Shown piece by piece: positions 29,786 through 36,841 of a DNA stretch of 57,234 nt. Under the pieces are notes generated by a model. That model searched no databases and was not told the DNA's origin. It saw only the letters and a program-made list of their open reading frames with translations. Source of the stretch: Paralimibaculum aggregatum (GTDB lineage Bacteria; Pseudomonadota; Alphaproteobacteria; Rhodobacterales; Rhodobacteraceae). Location: the NCBI RefSeq assembly GCF_030270585.1, contig NZ_BSYI01000032.1, positions 1 to 57,234 of the forward strand, written 5' to 3'. Position 1 is the stretch's first letter. Each line of letters starts with the position of its first letter. The translations under genes and the position numbers were made by a program.

Positions 29786-31162
29786 TCAGTCCTTGGCGTA
29801 GGGGTTCTCGCCCTTGCGCAGATGCAGCCGGAGCGGCACGCCGCCGAGCCCGAAATCGGCCCGCAGCCCGTTGACGAGGTAGCGGGTATAGCTCTCCGGC
29901 AGCGCCTCCGGCCGCGAGCAGAACACCACGAAGCCCGGCGGCCGGGTGCGCACCTGGGTCATGAAGCGCAGCCGGATGCGGCGCCCGCCGGGCGCCGGCG
30001 GCGGATGCTCGGCCAGCTTGGCGGCCAGCCAGTCGTTGAGCTTGGCGGTGGTGACGCGCTTGTTCCAGATCCGGTGCTGTGCCTCGACCGCGTCGCGCAG
30101 CCGGTCGAGCCCGCGCCCGGTGAGCCCCGAGAGCGTCACCAGCGGCACCCCGCGCAGCTGCGGCAGCAGCCGCTCGCCCATCTCGGTGAGGCGCCGGCGC
30201 TCGGCCTGCTTGTCCGCCACCGCGTCCCACTTGTTGACGGCGAGGATCACCGCGCGGCCCTCGCGCTCGGCGAGGTCGGCGATGCGCAGGTCCTGCGTCT
30301 CGAAGGCCTGGGCGGCGTCCATCAGCACCACCACCACCTCGGCGAAGCGGATCGCGCGCAGCGCATCGGCGGAGGACAGCCGGTCGAGCGTCTCCTGCAC
30401 CTTGGCCTTCTTGCGCAGCCCCGCGGTATCGAAGATGCGCACCGCCCGGCCGCCCCAGTCGGCGTCGAGCGCGATGGCGTCGCGGGTGAGTCCGGCCTCC
30501 GGCCCGGTGAGCAGGCGCTCGTCGCCGATGATGGTGTTGATCAGCGTCGACTTGCCGGCATTGGGCCGCCCGGTGATGGCGATCTGCAGCGGCCGCCGCT
30601 CGGCCAGCGGGTCGTCGTCGGCGCCGGGGATCGGCGCGCTATCGGCGGCGTCCTCGGGCGGTGCCAGCGCCTCGGCATAGGGGAGGATCGCGGAATAGAG
30701 GTCGCCCATGCCCTCGCCATGCTCGGCGGAGACCGCCACCGGGTCGCCGAGGCCGAGCTCGAAGGCCTCGTAGAGCCCCGCCTCCGACGCCCGGCCCTCG
30801 CACTTGTTGGCGGCGAGGATCACCCGCGCGCCGGACTTGCGCAGCATCTCCGCCAGCGTCCGGTCGAGCGCGAGCACCCCGGCGCGGGCGTCGATCAGGA
30901 AGAGGCAGAGATCGGCCTCGGCCATCGCGCGCTCGGTGAGCCGGCGCATCCGGCCCGGCAGGCTGTCGTCGGTGGCCTCCTCGAGGCCGGCGGTGTCGAT
31001 CACGCGGAAGCGCAGCTCGCCGAGCCGGCCCTCGCCCTCGCGCAGGTCGCGCGTGACCCCGGGCCGGTCGTCGACCAGCGCGAGGCGCTTGCCGACGAGG
31101 CGGTTGAACAGCGTGGACTTGCCGGTGTTGGGCCGGCCGATGATGGCGAGCGTGAAGGACAT
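29786..31162 (-). CDS. der: ribosome biogenesis GTPase Der (EngA)
   Basis: 458 residues with two tandem GTPase domains: GRPNTGKST (9-17), DTAG (56-59), NKCE; then GRPNAGKST (198-206), a second DTAG and NKWD; and a C-terminal KH-like domain. Der acts in 50S subunit maturation in the cytoplasm. The first G4 motif is NKCE rather than NKxD, which is usual in Der. It follows bamB and the YfgM-like gene in the classic order yfgM-bamB-der. A start 12 codons upstream is less likely. Confidence 0.95.
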
Positions 31163-31229
31163 GGCACGCCCCTTATCCCGCCCGTGAGCGGGCCGCAAGC
31201 GGCTCGCGCGCCCCGGCTCCCCGCGGCGC

Positions 31230-32567
31230 TCAGCGATAGGCGTGCAGCCCCGCCTCGTCGTCGAGGATGAAGATCGTGCCGCCGGCCACCACCGGCCCGG
31301 TGATCGAGCCCTCGGGCAGCTCCGCCGCCACGCCGCCCTCGCCGGTCACCGCGTTGAGCGACCAGAGATTGCCGAGGCTGTCGGTCAGGATCACCTGGCC
31401 GCCGACCACCACCGGGCCGGAATAGGTGATCGCGTCCTCGCGGTCCTCCTCGTCCTCGAAGGCCGGCAGCGCGCGCTGCCAGAGGGTCTGCCCGGTGGCG
31501 GCATCGAGGCGCAGCAGCTCGGCGGTGTCGGAGACCAGCCAGAGGCTGTCCCCCGCCGCCCAGATCGGCTGGGTGGCGCCGAGCGCCCGGGTCCAGATCC
31601 GCCGGCCGGTGCGGGTCTCGAGCGCCGCGGTGCGCCCGCTCTGGTTGGCCGAGACCACGAGCGGGCCGAGGATCACCGGATCGCCGGTGAGGTCCGTGAT
31701 CGCGGCGCGCGCCAGGCCGCGCCGGCCGCCGGTGATCACCGCGCCCCAGAAGCGCCGCCCGGAGCGCGCCTCCAGCGCCACCAGCTCGCCCGAGGCGAAC
31801 GGCACCACCGCGCCGCCGCCGGCCAGCGCCGGGCTGGCGCCGCCGAGATAGGCGGCATCGGCGCTCACGCCCTGCACGCGCCAGAGCACCGCGCCATCCG
31901 TCAGGGCCAGTCCGAAGGCCTCGCTGCCGCGGGTCACCGCCACGATCAGCCCGCCCTCGACGGCGGGGCCGGCCCGGAACGGCGCGCCGAAGCGCCGCCG
32001 CCAGACCTCCTCGCCGCTGCCGGAGGACAGCACCACGACCTCGCCGAAGCCGGTGGTCGCGACCAGCCGGTCGCCGGCCAGCGCCAGCCCGCCGCCGAAG
32101 CCCTCCTCGCCCTCCTCGTCCTCGTTGGGGGTGAGGTCGGCCTCCCAGCGCAGCGCGCCGGTGCCGGCGTCGAAGGCGCTGACCGTGGCGGCCGCGTCGA
32201 GGGTGTAGACCAGCCCGTTGCCGACGACCGGCGCCGAGGTGATCAGGCTGTCGTCGCTGATCCCCTCGCCGGCATCGGCGCTCCAGACCTTCTGGAAGCC
32301 GAGCGGGGCGCTCAGATGCCCGCTGTTATGCGCGGCGTTGCCGCCGGTCTGGGTCCAGCTCTCGATCGAGATGGCAGGGGGCAGCGGCCGGCGGATCACC
32401 ACGTCGCCGCTGGCCTGCGCGACCGCCTGGCGCACCGGCAGGCGCGTGCCCTCGAGCACCTCGTCGTCCTCGAACAGGCTGCAGCCGGCGAGCAGCGCCA
32501 GCGCGGCGGTCCAGACCGCCAGCCGCGCCAGGGTTGCGCCCGGGTTCCGCTTCGGCTCACTCCGCAT
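31230..32567 (-). CDS. bamB: outer-membrane assembly lipoprotein BamB-like (PQQ-like propeller)
   Basis: 445 residues. A lipoprotein signal with LLAGCS (Cys29) is followed by an eight-bladed PQQ-like beta-propeller with repeated AxxG..xW..xxxG patterns and the motif [20 protein letters not shown]. It is anchored in the outer membrane and helps BamA fold outer-membrane proteins. Its ATG overlaps the YfgM-like stop by 11 bases, so the two are coupled, and der follows 67 bases later. Confidence 0.88.
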
Positions 32568-35481
32568 CGCTGTCTCCCGCCGTCTCCTGGGTCTCGATGG
32601 CCGGCGCCGGGCCGCCATCGGGCTCGGTCGCCTGGGTCGGCCCCCCGTCGGCACGCGGCTCGGCAGCGCCCCCGGCGCGGACCGCCGGGTTCTCCGCCTC
32701 GGCCGCCACAGGCTCGGGCTCTGCCGCTTCGGGCTCAGGTTCGGCTGCCGCAGGCTCGGGCTCAGCCGCTTCGGGCTCAGGCTCTGCCGCTTCCGGCTCA
32801 GGCTCGATTGCCGCCGGCTCGGGCCCTGCCGCTTTGGGCTCAGGCTCGATTGCGGCCGGCTCTGGCTCCGCCGCTTCCGGCTCCGGCTCGATTGCGGCCG
32901 GCTCGGGCTCTGCCGCTTCCGGCTCCGGCTCGATCGCCGCAGGCTCGGCCTCAGCCGCCTCGGGCTCAGGCTCTGTTGCGGCAGGCTCGGGTTCGGCTGC
33001 TTCGGTTTCAGGTTCGATTGCCGCTGGCTCGGCTTCGGCTGCCGCAGGTTCAGTCTCGGCTGCGACCGCCTCGGGCTCGGCCACTTCGGGCTCAGGCTGG
33101 GTTGCCGCAGGTTCGGGCTCGACCGCTTCGGACTCAGGCTCGATTGCCGCAGGCGCTGGCTCGACCGTTTCGGACTCAGGCGGGGTTGCCGCAGGCTCTG
33201 GCTCGGCCGCGACAGGCTCCGGCTCGGTTGCCTGGGGCTCGGGTTCGGCCGCAGCAGGGGCGGGGGCGTCCATTGCCGACGTCGCCGGCTCGGCGGGACC
33301 CTCTGCGGCTTCGGCAGCTTCGCCGGGGGCGACTGGCAGAGGCTCGGGCTCGCCGGCGCTGTCGTCGGCCGAACCGGCCGCAGCGGTGGCTTTGGCGGCA
33401 CCGGTCGCGTCTTCGAGCGCCGCCGCGCCGGAGGCCCCGGCATCGACGGCTTCTGCCGCGGCAGCAGGCTCGGGACCCGCCTCTTCCGCCGCCTCTTCCT
33501 CGCCGGTGGCGTCCCCGGCCTCGATCATCGTTTCCGCCGTGGTCTCGGCCGGGGCTGCGGGCTCGGTGATGGCCCCTTCCGTACCCGCCTGCACCGCCTC
33601 GGCTGGTGCCGGAGCCTCGGGCGCGCCCGCTCCGTCCGCGGTGCCTTCGCCCGCGGGAGCCGGGAGATCGCCAGCCGGTGCGGTCTCGGGCGCTTCCGTA
33701 CCGGTGGCGGCCTCGGGGCCTGCGCCTACAGCGTCGATCATCGTATCCGCCGTGGTCTCGACCGGGGCTGCGGGCTCGGTGATCGCTCCCTCCGTCCCCG
33801 CCTGCACCGCCTCGGCGGGGGCCGGGGTCTCGGGCGCGCCCGTCCCGTCCGCGGCGCCTTCGCCCGCGGGAGCCGCGAGATCGCCAGCCGGTGCGGTCTC
33901 GGGCGCTTCCGTACCGGCTGCGGCCTCGGGGCCTGCGGCTTCAGCCTCGATCATCGTCTCTGCCGTGGTCTCGGCCGGGGCTGCGGGCTCGGTGATGGCC
34001 CCCTCCGTCCCCGCCTGCACCGCCTCGGCGGGGGCCGGAGCCTCGGGCGCGCCCGCTCCGTCCGCGGCGCCTTCGCCCGCGGGAGCCGGGAGATCACCAG
34101 CCGGCGCGGCTTCGGCCGGCTCGGGCAGGGCTTGCGCCGCGTCATCCGGGCTGACGGCTTCCGGCGCGGCCGTTTCGCCTTCCGGCGCGGGAACGGGGTC
34201 GGGAACGGTTTCGGTGGCCGGTGCCGCCGCGGCGGGGGCCGGGACCGGCTCGCCCGTGCTCTCGGCGCTGCCCGCGGGGTCGGCCGTCGCCGCCTCCTCC
34301 GCTGCCGGCGCAGGGGTGGTCATGTCTTCGGCGGCACCGGACCCGGTGTCCCCGGAACCCGCATCAGTGCCGTCCGCCGGCGCCGGCGTGTCTGAGGGGC
34401 CCGGTGCCGGGGTGTCGGCGGCATCCGGGGCAGGCGCCGGCTCGGCGGCGTCGCCGGCAGGCCCGGCAGCCGCGGGTGCCGGCCCGGTGCCGTCGGCGCC
34501 CTCTGCGCTCGCCGGGTCGGTTCCTTCCGGTTCCGCTGCCGCGCCGCCATCGGTTTCAGCTGGCGGGGCGGCGGGCGCGGGCGCGCCATCGCCAGCCGGC
34601 TGCGGCTGCCCGGTCTCCCCGGCATCGACGTCGCCGGCGGTTTCGGTTGACATCGCCCCGGCCGCAGGCTCGGCAGGCTCGGCCGCATCGCCTTCGACGG
34701 CCGCGGGCGCATCCGCGGTGCCGGCAGCCGGGGCGGGCGGCTCGGTGCCGTCGCCGGCGCCCCCTGCCTCGCCGGCGGCGGCGCCCTCCGGCGTGTCCTC
34801 GCCAGGAGGTGCGATCTGCGGCGCGGCCTCGCGGGCCTCGGCGGCCACCGTCTCGGCCTCGACGATCGCCAGCATCTGCAGCGCGCGGGCGTTCAGGCCG
34901 CGGGTCAGCCCCGGCGACCCGAGGATCGCCTCGAGATCGGCCTGCGCCCCCTCGCGGTCGCCGCCGTTGAGGCGCAGCGCGGCGCGCAGCTCGAGCGCCA
35001 GCGGGCGGTAGGGCGCATCCTCGGCGACCAGCGGCGCGAGCTGGCCCTCGGCCTCCTCGAGCGGGATCCCCGGCGCCGTCAGCCGCGCCGCCTCGAGCGC
35101 CGCGAGATCGGTATAGGCCCGCTTCAGCCGCGAATCCCCGGCGACCGCGCGGTAGTTCTCGATGGCCGCGCGCAGGTCGCCCTCCGCCGCCTGGGCCGCG
35201 GCGAGCTGGAGCCGGGCGATCGCCGCCGCCGGGCCATCGCCCACCGCCTCGAGCACCGCCGCCTTCTCCGCCGCGTCCGGCCCCGCCGCGAGGATCGCCG
35301 CGCCGCGGGCCCGTGCCGCCTCGCGCTCCTCGGCCTGCATCCAGTTCCAGACCGCCGCGCCCGCCACGATGGCGGCGATGCCGCCGATGGCAAAGGGCGC
35401 ATAGCGCTTCCACATCCGGAACATGCGGTCCTGGCGGACCTCTTCGCTTACCTCGCGAATGAAACTGTCGGTGTCGCTCAC
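32557..35481 (-). CDS. YfgM-like tetratricopeptide protein with a giant Pro/Glu/Ala repeat tail
   Basis: 974 residues if it starts at GTG 35481, whose MSDTDSFIREVSEEVRQD is the usual family N-terminus; an ATG four codons upstream lacks a ribosome site. A signal-anchor helix (about 28-47, YAPFAIGGIAAIVAGAAVW) is followed by a TPR-rich YfgM-like domain (about 50-220), which is the entire normal length of the family. Residues 220-974 are almost only Ala, Pro, Glu, Gly, Thr and Ser. They are made of three 71-residue tandem blocks (213-bp units, 33521-34115) and a 42-bp PE repeat region (32700-33250). The tail should be in the periplasm, acidic and disordered. It precedes bamB with an overlap. Function of the tail is unknown. 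Confidence 0.85.
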   Translation of the reverse strand: MSDTDSFIREVSEEVRQDRMFRMWKRYAPFAIGGIAAIVAGAAVWNWMQAEEREAARARGAAILAAGPDAAEKAAVLEAVGDGPAAAIARLQLAAAQAAEGDLRAAIENYRAVAGDSRLKRAYTDLAALEAARLTAPGIPLEEAEGQLAPLVAEDAPYRPLALELRAALRLNGGDREGAQADLEAILGSPGLTRGLNARALQMLAIVEAETVAAEAREAAPQIAPPGEDTPEGAAAGEAGGAGDGTEPPAPAAGTADAPAAVEGDAAEPAEPAAGAMSTETAGDVDAGETGQPQPAGDGAPAPAAPPAETDGGAAAEPEGTDPASAEGADGTGPAPAAAGPAGDAAEPAPAPDAADTPAPGPSDTPAPADGTDAGSGDTGSGAAEDMTTPAPAAEEAATADPAGSAESTGEPVPAPAAAAPATETVPDPVPAPEGETAAPEAVSPDDAAQALPEPAEAAPAGDLPAPAGEGAADGAGAPEAPAPAEAVQAGTEGAITEPAAPAETTAETMIEAEAAGPEAAAGTEAPETAPAGDLAAPAGEGAADGTGAPETPAPAEAVQAGTEGAITEPAAPVETTADTMIDAVGAGPEAATGTEAPETAPAGDLPAPAGEGTADGAGAPEAPAPAEAVQAGTEGAITEPAAPAETTAETMIEAGDATGEEEAAEEAGPEPAAAAEAVDAGASGAAALEDATGAAKATAAAGSADDSAGEPEPLPVAPGEAAEAAEGPAEPATSAMDAPAPAAAEPEPQATEPEPVAAEPEPAATPPESETVEPAPAAIEPESEAVEPEPAATQPEPEVAEPEAVAAETEPAAAEAEPAAIEPETEAAEPEPAATEPEPEAAEAEPAAIEPEPEAAEPEPAAIEPEPEAAEPEPAAIEPEPKAAGPEPAAIEPEPEAAEPEPEAAEPEPAAAEPEPEAAEPEPVAAEAENPAVRAGGAAEPRADGGPTQATEPDGGPAPAIETQETAGDSDAE
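32700..33250 (-). repeat. 42-bp tandem repeats coding an EPEPEAAEPEPAAI motif
   Basis: Four consecutive exact-length units lie at 32786-32827, 32828-32869, 32870-32911 and 32912-32953, differing only at a few bases. Degenerate half-units extend to about 33250. The repeat is in frame, giving 14 residues each, rich in Glu and Pro. Confidence 0.85.
33521..34115 (-). repeat. 213-bp tandem repeats, nearly three copies, inside the YfgM-like gene
   Basis: Copies begin at 33521, 33734 and 33947 with TCGATCATCG; the period is exactly 213 bases (71 codons). The third copy loses identity after about 34115. The copies match for most of their length with scattered substitutions, some silent, so they are older than a cloning or assembly artefact would imply. 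Confidence 0.85.
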
Positions 35482-35608
35482 CGGGACCCCCATCTTGCGT
35501 GGCCGAGACCCTATCCCCTGCGCCGATCAACGCAAGGTGTTTCGCAGCCGCTGGCATGGCGCCACGGAATGGCTATCTCGGGGGGGAACCGCAAGGGGGA
35601 GGACAGCG

Positions 35609-36841
35609 ATGAAGACCGAGAAACTCGATTTTCCGGGCCATAGCGGCGCCCGCCTCGCCGCGAGGCTCGACCTGCCGGGGGGGCGGCCGCGCGCCGTGGC
35701 GCTGTTCGCGCACTGCTTCACCTGCGGCAAGGACATCGCCGCGGCGCGGCGCATCGCCGGGCGGCTGAGCGCCGAGGGCATCGCCGTGCTGCGCTTCGAC
35801 TTCACCGGGCTCGGCCATTCCGAGGGGGAGTTCGGCAGCACCGGCTTCTCGGCCAATATCGGCGATCTGGTGGCGGCGGCGGAGCATCTGGCCGGGCGCG
35901 GGCTGGCGCCGGAGATCCTGATCGGCCATTCGCTCGGCGGCGCCGCGGTGCTGGCCGCGGCGGGAGACCTGCCCTCGGTGCGGGCGGTGGTCACCATCGG
36001 CGCGCCGGCGGATCCGGGGCATGTGCTGCACAATTTCGGCGCCGGGCTGGAGGCGATCCGGGCCGAGGGCGAAGCGGAGGTGACGCTCGGCGGGCGCAAG
36101 TTCTCGATCTCGAAGGGCTTCGTCGAGGATGTCGAGGCGGCGCGGCTGACCGGGCGCATCGCCGGGCTGAAGCGCGCGCTGCTGGTGCTGCACGCCCCGC
36201 GCGACGCGCAGGTCGGCATCGAGAACGCCTCCGAGATCTTCCGCGCCGCGAAGCATCCCAAGAGCTTCGTCAGCCTCGACGATGCCGACCACCTGCTGAC
36301 CCGCGCCGCGGATGCCGACTATGCCGCAGGGGTGATCGCCGCCTGGGCGCTGCGCTACCTGCCGGCGGAGCCCGGCGAGGCGGCGCCGGCGGAGGAGGTC
36401 GTGCGGGTCTCCGAGGCCGACCCCGGGGGCTTCCTGCAGAACATCCGCGTCGGGCCGCGGCACCGGCTGCGCGCCGACGAGCCGCCGGCGGTGGGGGGCA
36501 GCGATCTCGGCCCCTCGCCCTATGGCCTGGTCTCCGCCGGGCTCGGCGCCTGCACGGCGATGACGGTGCGGATGTATGCGCGGCGCAAGGGCTGGCCGCT
36601 CGAGGACGTGCAGGTCGAGATCGAGCACGACAAGATCCATGCCGAGGACTGCGAGCACTGCGAAACCCGCGACGGAAAGATCGACCGTTTCCGCCGCCGC
36701 ATCCGCCTCTCCGGCCCGCTCGACGCGGCCCAGCGCGCGCGGCTGATGGAGATCGCCGACCGCTGCCCGGTGCACCGCACGCTGGAGAGCGCGGTGGTGG
36801 TGGAGACCGAGGCGGTGGAGAGCGGGGCCGCCGCCGACTGA
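35609..36841 (+). CDS. alpha/beta hydrolase fused to an OsmC-family domain
   Basis: 410 residues. The N-terminal half has an alpha/beta-hydrolase with LFAHCFTCGKD (oxyanion region), the nucleophile elbow GHSLGG and a downstream Asp/His pair (LHAPRDAQVG, DADHLL). The C-terminal half is an OsmC/Ohr domain with LGACTAMTVRMYARRKG and DRCPVHRTLE, carrying the two redox cysteines that reduce organic peroxides. This bifunctional layout is a recognised proteobacterial type. The start follows GGGGGAGGACAGCG. It is transcribed divergently from the YfgM-like gene; CTTGCGT (35494) and ACGCAAG (35530) form an inverted pair in the spacer. Confidence 0.88.
   Translation: MKTEKLDFPGHSGARLAARLDLPGGRPRAVALFAHCFTCGKDIAAARRIAGRLSAEGIAVLRFDFTGLGHSEGEFGSTGFSANIGDLVAAAEHLAGRGLAPEILIGHSLGGAAVLAAAGDLPSVRAVVTIGAPADPGHVLHNFGAGLEAIRAEGEAEVTLGGRKFSISKGFVEDVEAARLTGRIAGLKRALLVLHAPRDAQVGIENASEIFRAAKHPKSFVSLDDADHLLTRAADADYAAGVIAAWALRYLPAEPGEAAPAEEVVRVSEADPGGFLQNIRVGPRHRLRADEPPAVGGSDLGPSPYGLVSAGLGACTAMTVRMYARRKGWPLEDVQVEIEHDKIHAEDCEHCETRDGKIDRFRRRIRLSGPLDAAQRARLMEIADRCPVHRTLESAVVVETEAVESGAAAD

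Follow-up and report, generated by a model that had tools for sequence, protein, structure and literature searches.

YfgM of Escherichia coli is described as an N-in/C-out membrane protein whose TPR domain holds PpiD, both proteins touching SecG (PMC9643414), and models of the PpiD/YfgM/SecYEG neighbourhood have been presented (PMC9797188). Its gene is reported to contain a sigma-E promoter that serves bamB (PMC9643414). What YfgM itself contributes at the translocon is still little understood. Two further systems are relevant for comparison. TonB and TolA are described as carrying a folded C-terminal domain beyond their linker (PMC12204202), and the acidic Pro-rich linker of PopZ from Caulobacterales is reported to expand beyond the denatured limit, its length and charge tuning the system (PMC9512792). 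No description of a long YfgM tail was found among the listed titles and abstract openings of open-licence papers on YfgM.

We analyzed a window of 57,234 nucleotides, the whole stretch of contig NZ_BSYI01000032.1 of Paralimibaculum aggregatum presented here, which carries a yfgM-like gene directly upstream of bamB. A typical YfgM ends shortly after its TPR domain; here, 765 extra residues follow.

The yfgM-like gene, its core and its neighbours

The following features were assigned in this part of the window:

32557–35481, minus strand: yfgM-like gene, 974 codons, with a GTG start at 35481
34855–35481, minus strand: YfgM core, residues 1–209 (N-terminus, one membrane helix and TPR domain), assigned by PF09976, AlphaFold2 and Foldseek
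32560–34854, minus strand: predicted acidic disordered tail, residues 210–974, assigned by composition and by low pLDDT without secondary structure in the full-length model
32557–32567, minus strand: 11-base overlap of the yfgM end and the bamB start, with the bamB ATG at 32567
32574–32578: putative bamB ribosome-binding site GGGAG inside the yfgM tail, read by eye
31230–32567, minus strand: bamB, a PQQ_2/BamB beta-propeller (PF13360, 197.7 bits; orthologues; lipoprotein-like N-terminus by eye)
29786–31165, minus strand: der (EngA) GTPase, the downstream neighbour (PF01926 and PF14714; a TTG start at 31198 is also possible)

An in-frame ATG at 35493 could also serve as the yfgM start, and the relatives align from the position of the GTG. 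Pfam matched the whole protein to TPR_21 alone (PF09976, residues 24–184, 27.8 bits against a cut-off of 25.5), and NCBIfam returned no family at E 0.1 for either the core or the whole protein. AlphaFold2 modelled residues 5–218 with a mean pLDDT of 95.4, as a long N-terminal helix with the membrane segment followed by helical hairpins. When this core model was compared with the PDB by Foldseek, no match reached E 0.001, and the top match, at E 3.1e-3 and with a TM score of 0.58 normalised by target length, was 8zht_B of the PpiD-YfgM complex. A sequence profile run against solved structures at E 0.01 gave two chance-like matches, 8zht not being among them. The same genome encodes a PpiD-like candidate (140 bits for PF13624, with an N-terminal hydrophobic segment seen by eye). 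Because of the TPR_21 match, the predicted fold, the 8zht_B match and the PpiD-like gene, we conclude that the core is a regular YfgM with one membrane helix and a TPR domain.

A second, weaker TPR_21 match lies elsewhere in the genome (L002, contig 17, 103794–104084; 25.2 bits, or 29.4 with its neighbours). Divergent from yfgM, the window encodes an alpha/beta hydrolase-OsmC domain fusion (35609–36841, plus strand). A promoter and terminator scan limited to the sigma-70 type found none.

The bamB product scored 163.7 bits with the NCBIfam BamB equivalog TIGR03300, under its cut-off of 285.2. The sequence-only reading had the 11-base overlap right. Of the yfgM-bamB-der context that it called conserved, yfgM and bamB are adjacent on the same strand in 79/80 named loci, the remaining one having no bamB match in the available DNA. 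In all four congeners, der is the next gene after bamB and has its orientation (with a gap of ~1 kb in two of them), but in G008, a genome of another genus, der is on the opposite strand. Short-tailed relatives keep bamB next to yfgM, so this adjacency is independent of the tail.

Composition, repeats and reading frame of the acidic tail

The 765 residues of the tail consist mostly of Ala (31.6%), Glu (17.8%), Pro (17.4%) and Gly (9.9%), without aromatic residues, Cys or His. Acidic residues (176) far outnumber basic ones (5), giving a net charge of -171, where the core alone carries only -7; the pI of the whole protein is 4.05. From its start, the tail consists of an irregular stretch of 249 residues, a 213-residue array with 2.8 copies of a 71-residue repeat, a second irregular stretch of 73 residues, the 26 heptads and a terminal stretch of 46 residues. 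The two repeat arrays are as follows:

33518–34109, minus strand: 71-residue (213-bp) repeat, 2.8 copies (TRF score 1023, 91% matches)
32698–33252, minus strand: 26 heptads of the form xEPEPxA with a 14-residue higher-order unit, containing 32% Glu, 25% Pro and no Asp

At the DNA level, the heptads appear as 11.4 copies of a 42-bp unit (score 475), and all eight periods in the repeat list are divisible by 3.

In a model of residues 5–974 built from a 40-row alignment, no helix or strand was found past model residue 215, and the block-mean pLDDT was 30–49 from model residue 231 onward. The charge-hydropathy plot placed the tail on the disordered side, except for a 73-residue stretch (672–744). 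Net charge per residue is -0.22 for the tail and -0.32 for the heptad array. The radius of gyration (Rg) is estimated at ~10 to 23 nm from a general law for denatured chains and from the PopZ-like law given in PMC9512792, and the contour length, at 0.36 nm per residue, at up to ~275 nm. The composition and the model thus indicate that the C-terminus of this YfgM carries a disordered-looking, acidic chain rich in Ala, Pro and Glu. This bears out the sequence-only reading of 32557–35481 as a YfgM-like protein with a long disordered acidic tail, through the TPR_21 match, the composition and the low-pLDDT model; its figure of ~750 residues was close, while its description of the tail as repeat-built applies to about half of it, the two arrays covering ~380 of the 765 residues.

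We considered whether the tail could be an independent gene or a phage piece, and rejected this, as the tail had no family match in Pfam, NCBIfam or PHROGs. In the genome, no second copy turned up with the queries 32557–33330 and ~33470–34854 (~46 residues between them being uncovered), among the best 150 of 2089 and the best 150 of 577 candidates that were scored.

Across the tail DNA, two reading frames out of six are free of stops, the YfgM frame and an antisense frame that shares its wobble positions. The latter (32534–35011, plus strand) extends over 825 codons and is rich in Gly, Ser and Ala. Because the DNA is GC-rich and this antisense frame is also stop-free, an open frame alone is weak evidence for translation. 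Repeat copies were therefore compared. In the YfgM frame, 13 fourteen-codon units gave a pN/pS of 0.247, and three copies of the 71-residue repeat, set against each other over 54 codons, gave 0.234, while the remaining frames had pN/pS > 1 or stop codons, the exception being the wobble-sharing antisense frame (0.333 and 0.243, respectively).

The Glu codons were used to separate these two frames. In the heptads, transversions that would convert Glu to Asp occurred at 0/56 wobbles of GA. codons, versus 25/110 at fourfold wobbles (Fisher p 1.5e-5), and a cruder count gave pyrimidines at 0/59 Glu wobbles versus 56/114. In the 71-residue repeats, the comparison of transversions failed to separate the two classes of wobble (2/30 vs 4/117). 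By region, the crude Glu-wobble count did not reach significance in the first third (p 0.11), and gave p 2e-5 in the repeat region and p 5e-14 over the whole tail; all these p values are approximate, because the repeat copies are not independent samples. The lack of any Glu-to-Asp change at 56 heptad positions is as expected for a YfgM frame that is read and in which Glu is important. Judged from these codon patterns, the tail behaves as translated, its amino acids apparently having been kept in the repeats while synonymous sites diverged. The heptad Glu-wobble tests also led us to reject the antisense frame as a real gene, and it is probably a by-product of the codon pattern. We regard the identity of the protein as YfgM and its translation together with the tail as nearly certain.

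The GC content at third positions (GC3) is 76.7% in the tail, compared to 93.8–96.5% in the core, bamB and der, and it is lowest in the heptads (66.8%). This might reflect weak codon selection or recent growth. RNase E of the same genome, taken as a control, shows that a terminal disordered region other than the YfgM tail can also have a low GC3: its C-terminal part has 75–87%, against 88–97% in an internal disordered insert.

Tails in related YfgM proteins

YfgM was found in 4/4 congeneric genomes (50–58% identity). All four proteins end within ~12 residues of the aligned TPR core, and the stop is followed by a short gap and then bamB. The core must work without a tail, because these four congeners have none. 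The sequence-only reading had proposed to set the tail length against that of relatives: beyond core position 204, the 80 named loci carry 6–25 residues (median 12), versus 770 here (974 minus 204). It had also held that the tail should be dismissed if close relatives stop directly after the TPR domain and the tail is an artefact or untranslated; the former is indeed seen in all four congeners, but the latter is contradicted by the codon evidence. Because YfgM ends with the TPR domain or shortly beyond it in 4/4 congeners, the tail seems to have been gained in this lineage, in a species represented by one genome.

Tails are also present on YfgM outside the genus. For this comparison, 222 loci from the family and the class were merged to 201 domains distinct over residues 21–180 of the PF09976 match, after 12 loci had been left out (the second PF09976 locus, a partial copy of the window, eight loci from the BamB search and two tail-only loci). 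Tails of at least 25 residues were found on 12 of the 201 domains, the window included, tails of at least 40 on six, and tails of at least 100 on two; these counts are not an unbiased frequency, because the sampling deliberately favoured loci with long open frames. The window tail was entered by hand as 760 in the tail-length table, since the copies available for it are truncated. The 11 other tails have 26–167 residues, and 10 of them are acidic, so that 11/12 tails show an acidic excess with little or no Lys or Arg. The exception is the ~44-residue Lys/Glu/Ala-rich tail of L019 (G021). Five more tails of 20–24 residues lie below the threshold, four of them acidic and one, L218, Ala-rich and uncharged. 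The longest other tail among those examined, ~167 residues in G022 (L024/L172), is exceeded 4.5 times by that of the window; these lengths hold among the matches listed, and further genomes may have longer ones. We also examined six genomes with frames of 559–740 codons (G310, G219, G086, G382, G278 and G351) as candidates for long tails and rejected them, since in 6/6 the additional codons precede the gene.

Acidic tails of 34–64 residues occur in four genera, G015 (L025), G228 (L219), G164 (L206) and G206 (L212), which form one clade with a support of 99 (FastTree); small repeats are visible by eye in the G015 tail. On the FastTree tree of 200 full-length rows, the 11 rows with tails of at least 25 residues need at least seven changes, gains or losses. 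Acidic tails on YfgM therefore appear, from their distribution, to be recurrent.

Long disordered-looking regions are not confined to YfgM in this genome. Its RNase E (L239, contig 36) has long inserts of this kind, rich in Ala, Glu and Pro, and its open frame of 1290 codons is longer than in the four congeners (998–1130), G008 of another genus having 1245. Because of this longer RNase E frame, it is possible that the species tolerates or favours longer disordered regions generally.

Candidate roles and comparison with known systems

We infer, as the most likely role and with some reserve, that the tail is a polyanionic entropic brush at the exit of the Sec translocon. From the N-in/C-out topology of the family, it would lie in the periplasm at the PpiD-YfgM-SecYEG site, as an expanded soluble chain (estimated Rg 10–23 nm) that could crowd and electrostatically screen the translocon exit. 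Such a brush might keep emerging or PpiD-held clients from aggregation or premature binding, and it would depend on composition and length without requiring a docking motif. A broader proposal, which we consider doubtful, is that YfgM has repeatedly been made into a membrane-anchored polyanionic brush, in which length and charge rather than sequence would set the screening of clients before PpiD, SurA and BAM, the 765 residues being the extreme case.

The strongest rival of the brush is near-neutral repeat expansion under solubility selection, which we judge quite possible. In-frame slippage and unequal crossover would have lengthened a tolerant, exposed C-terminus that has no dedicated role, selection removing only hydrophobic, basic or frame-breaking changes. 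The tandem repeats and low GC3 of the tail, its absence in 4/4 congeners, the short tails in scattered lineages and the lengthened RNase E of the same genome are all consistent with this. However, a pN/pS of ~0.25 among copies and the lack of Glu-to-Asp changes in the heptads point to more than upkeep of the frame, and both the acidity of 11/12 tails and a four-row clade that is acidic-tailed throughout speak against such an expansion.

A third explanation is a tether that spans the periplasm, the tail reaching the outer membrane and contacting BamB/BAM or peptidoglycan, so that the Sec exit would be coupled to BAM. A contour length of up to ~275 nm or an Rg of 10–23 nm would suffice, bamB is adjacent, and an association of Sec with BAM has been published (PMC7695460). 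We nevertheless find this improbable, as its positive support consists of reach and gene adjacency only, the adjacency is also seen in short-tailed relatives, and the tail end shows neither a domain nor predicted structure, where the linkers of TonB and TolA are described as ending in folded domains (PMC12204202). The brush is favoured over a linker of the TonB/TolA type because nothing folded was found beyond the tail. The sequence-only reading had suggested a TonB-like span or spacer, which the free chain end, the lack of any domain beyond TPR_21 and the unstructured model leave weakly supported. It had also placed the protein in the outer-membrane assembly environment, where the documented neighbourhood of YfgM is that of PpiD and SecYEG (PMC9643414, PMC9797188), the available parts of these two sources describing no direct YfgM-BAM contact. 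Its position beside BamB is observed as gene adjacency, and its periplasmic side is predicted by analogy with E. coli YfgM, which is described as N-in/C-out (PMC9643414).

Ionic or osmotic adaptation, in which the polyanion would mainly bind cations or keep the protein soluble in salt, seems more improbable still. The net charge of -171, the pI of 4.05 and the recurrence of acidic tails would fit, as would a congener named Thermohalobaculum, whose halophily is taken from its name alone, but the four congeners are tailless and the core has a net charge of only -7. Finally, that the tail is an assembly artefact or untranslated, or that the coding frame is the antisense one of 825 codons, is highly improbable, since, although that frame is stop-free over the tail with a low pN/pS of its own, the YfgM frame runs from the TPR domain to the 11-base overlap with bamB, the heptads keep Glu and all eight repeat periods preserve the frame.

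If the tail is periplasmic, it would be an unusual, very long disordered polyanion on a general accessory protein of the translocon. YfgM tails occur naturally at lengths between 0 and 765 residues, mostly acidic and in several separate lineages, and with this series one could ask directly whether a charged disordered chain at the exit of the Sec translocon alters the fate of clients.

As in E. coli YfgM (PDB 8zht), the protein has an N-terminal membrane helix and a TPR domain, its gene lies directly upstream of bamB, and the genome encodes a candidate PpiD. Unlike E. coli YfgM, in which the TPR domain is described as nearly the entire periplasmic region (PMC9643414), it continues for 765 disordered-looking residues. 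The acidic tails of G022, G015, G228, G164 and G206 occupy the same position and are rich in Ala, Pro, Glu, Asp and Thr, without Lys or Arg; they are 4.5 to 22 times shorter than the window tail, the comparison being one of composition only. With TonB and domain II of TolA, the tail shares a Pro-rich, charged, extended chain, a presumed inner-membrane anchor and a length enough to cross the periplasm, but no folded C-terminal domain was found on it, so there is no evident docking or force transmission. The PopZ linker, which acts as a spacer, is cytoplasmic and has 78 residues between two functional parts, whereas the YfgM tail has ~ten times that length, forms the end of its protein and presumably lies in the periplasm. 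In composition, the two are alike, with a net charge per residue of -0.32 and 25% Pro in the heptads versus -0.28 and 29% Pro reported for the disordered region of PopZ (PMC9512792), which makes the PopZ linker, by this analogy, the nearest functional counterpart of the tail.
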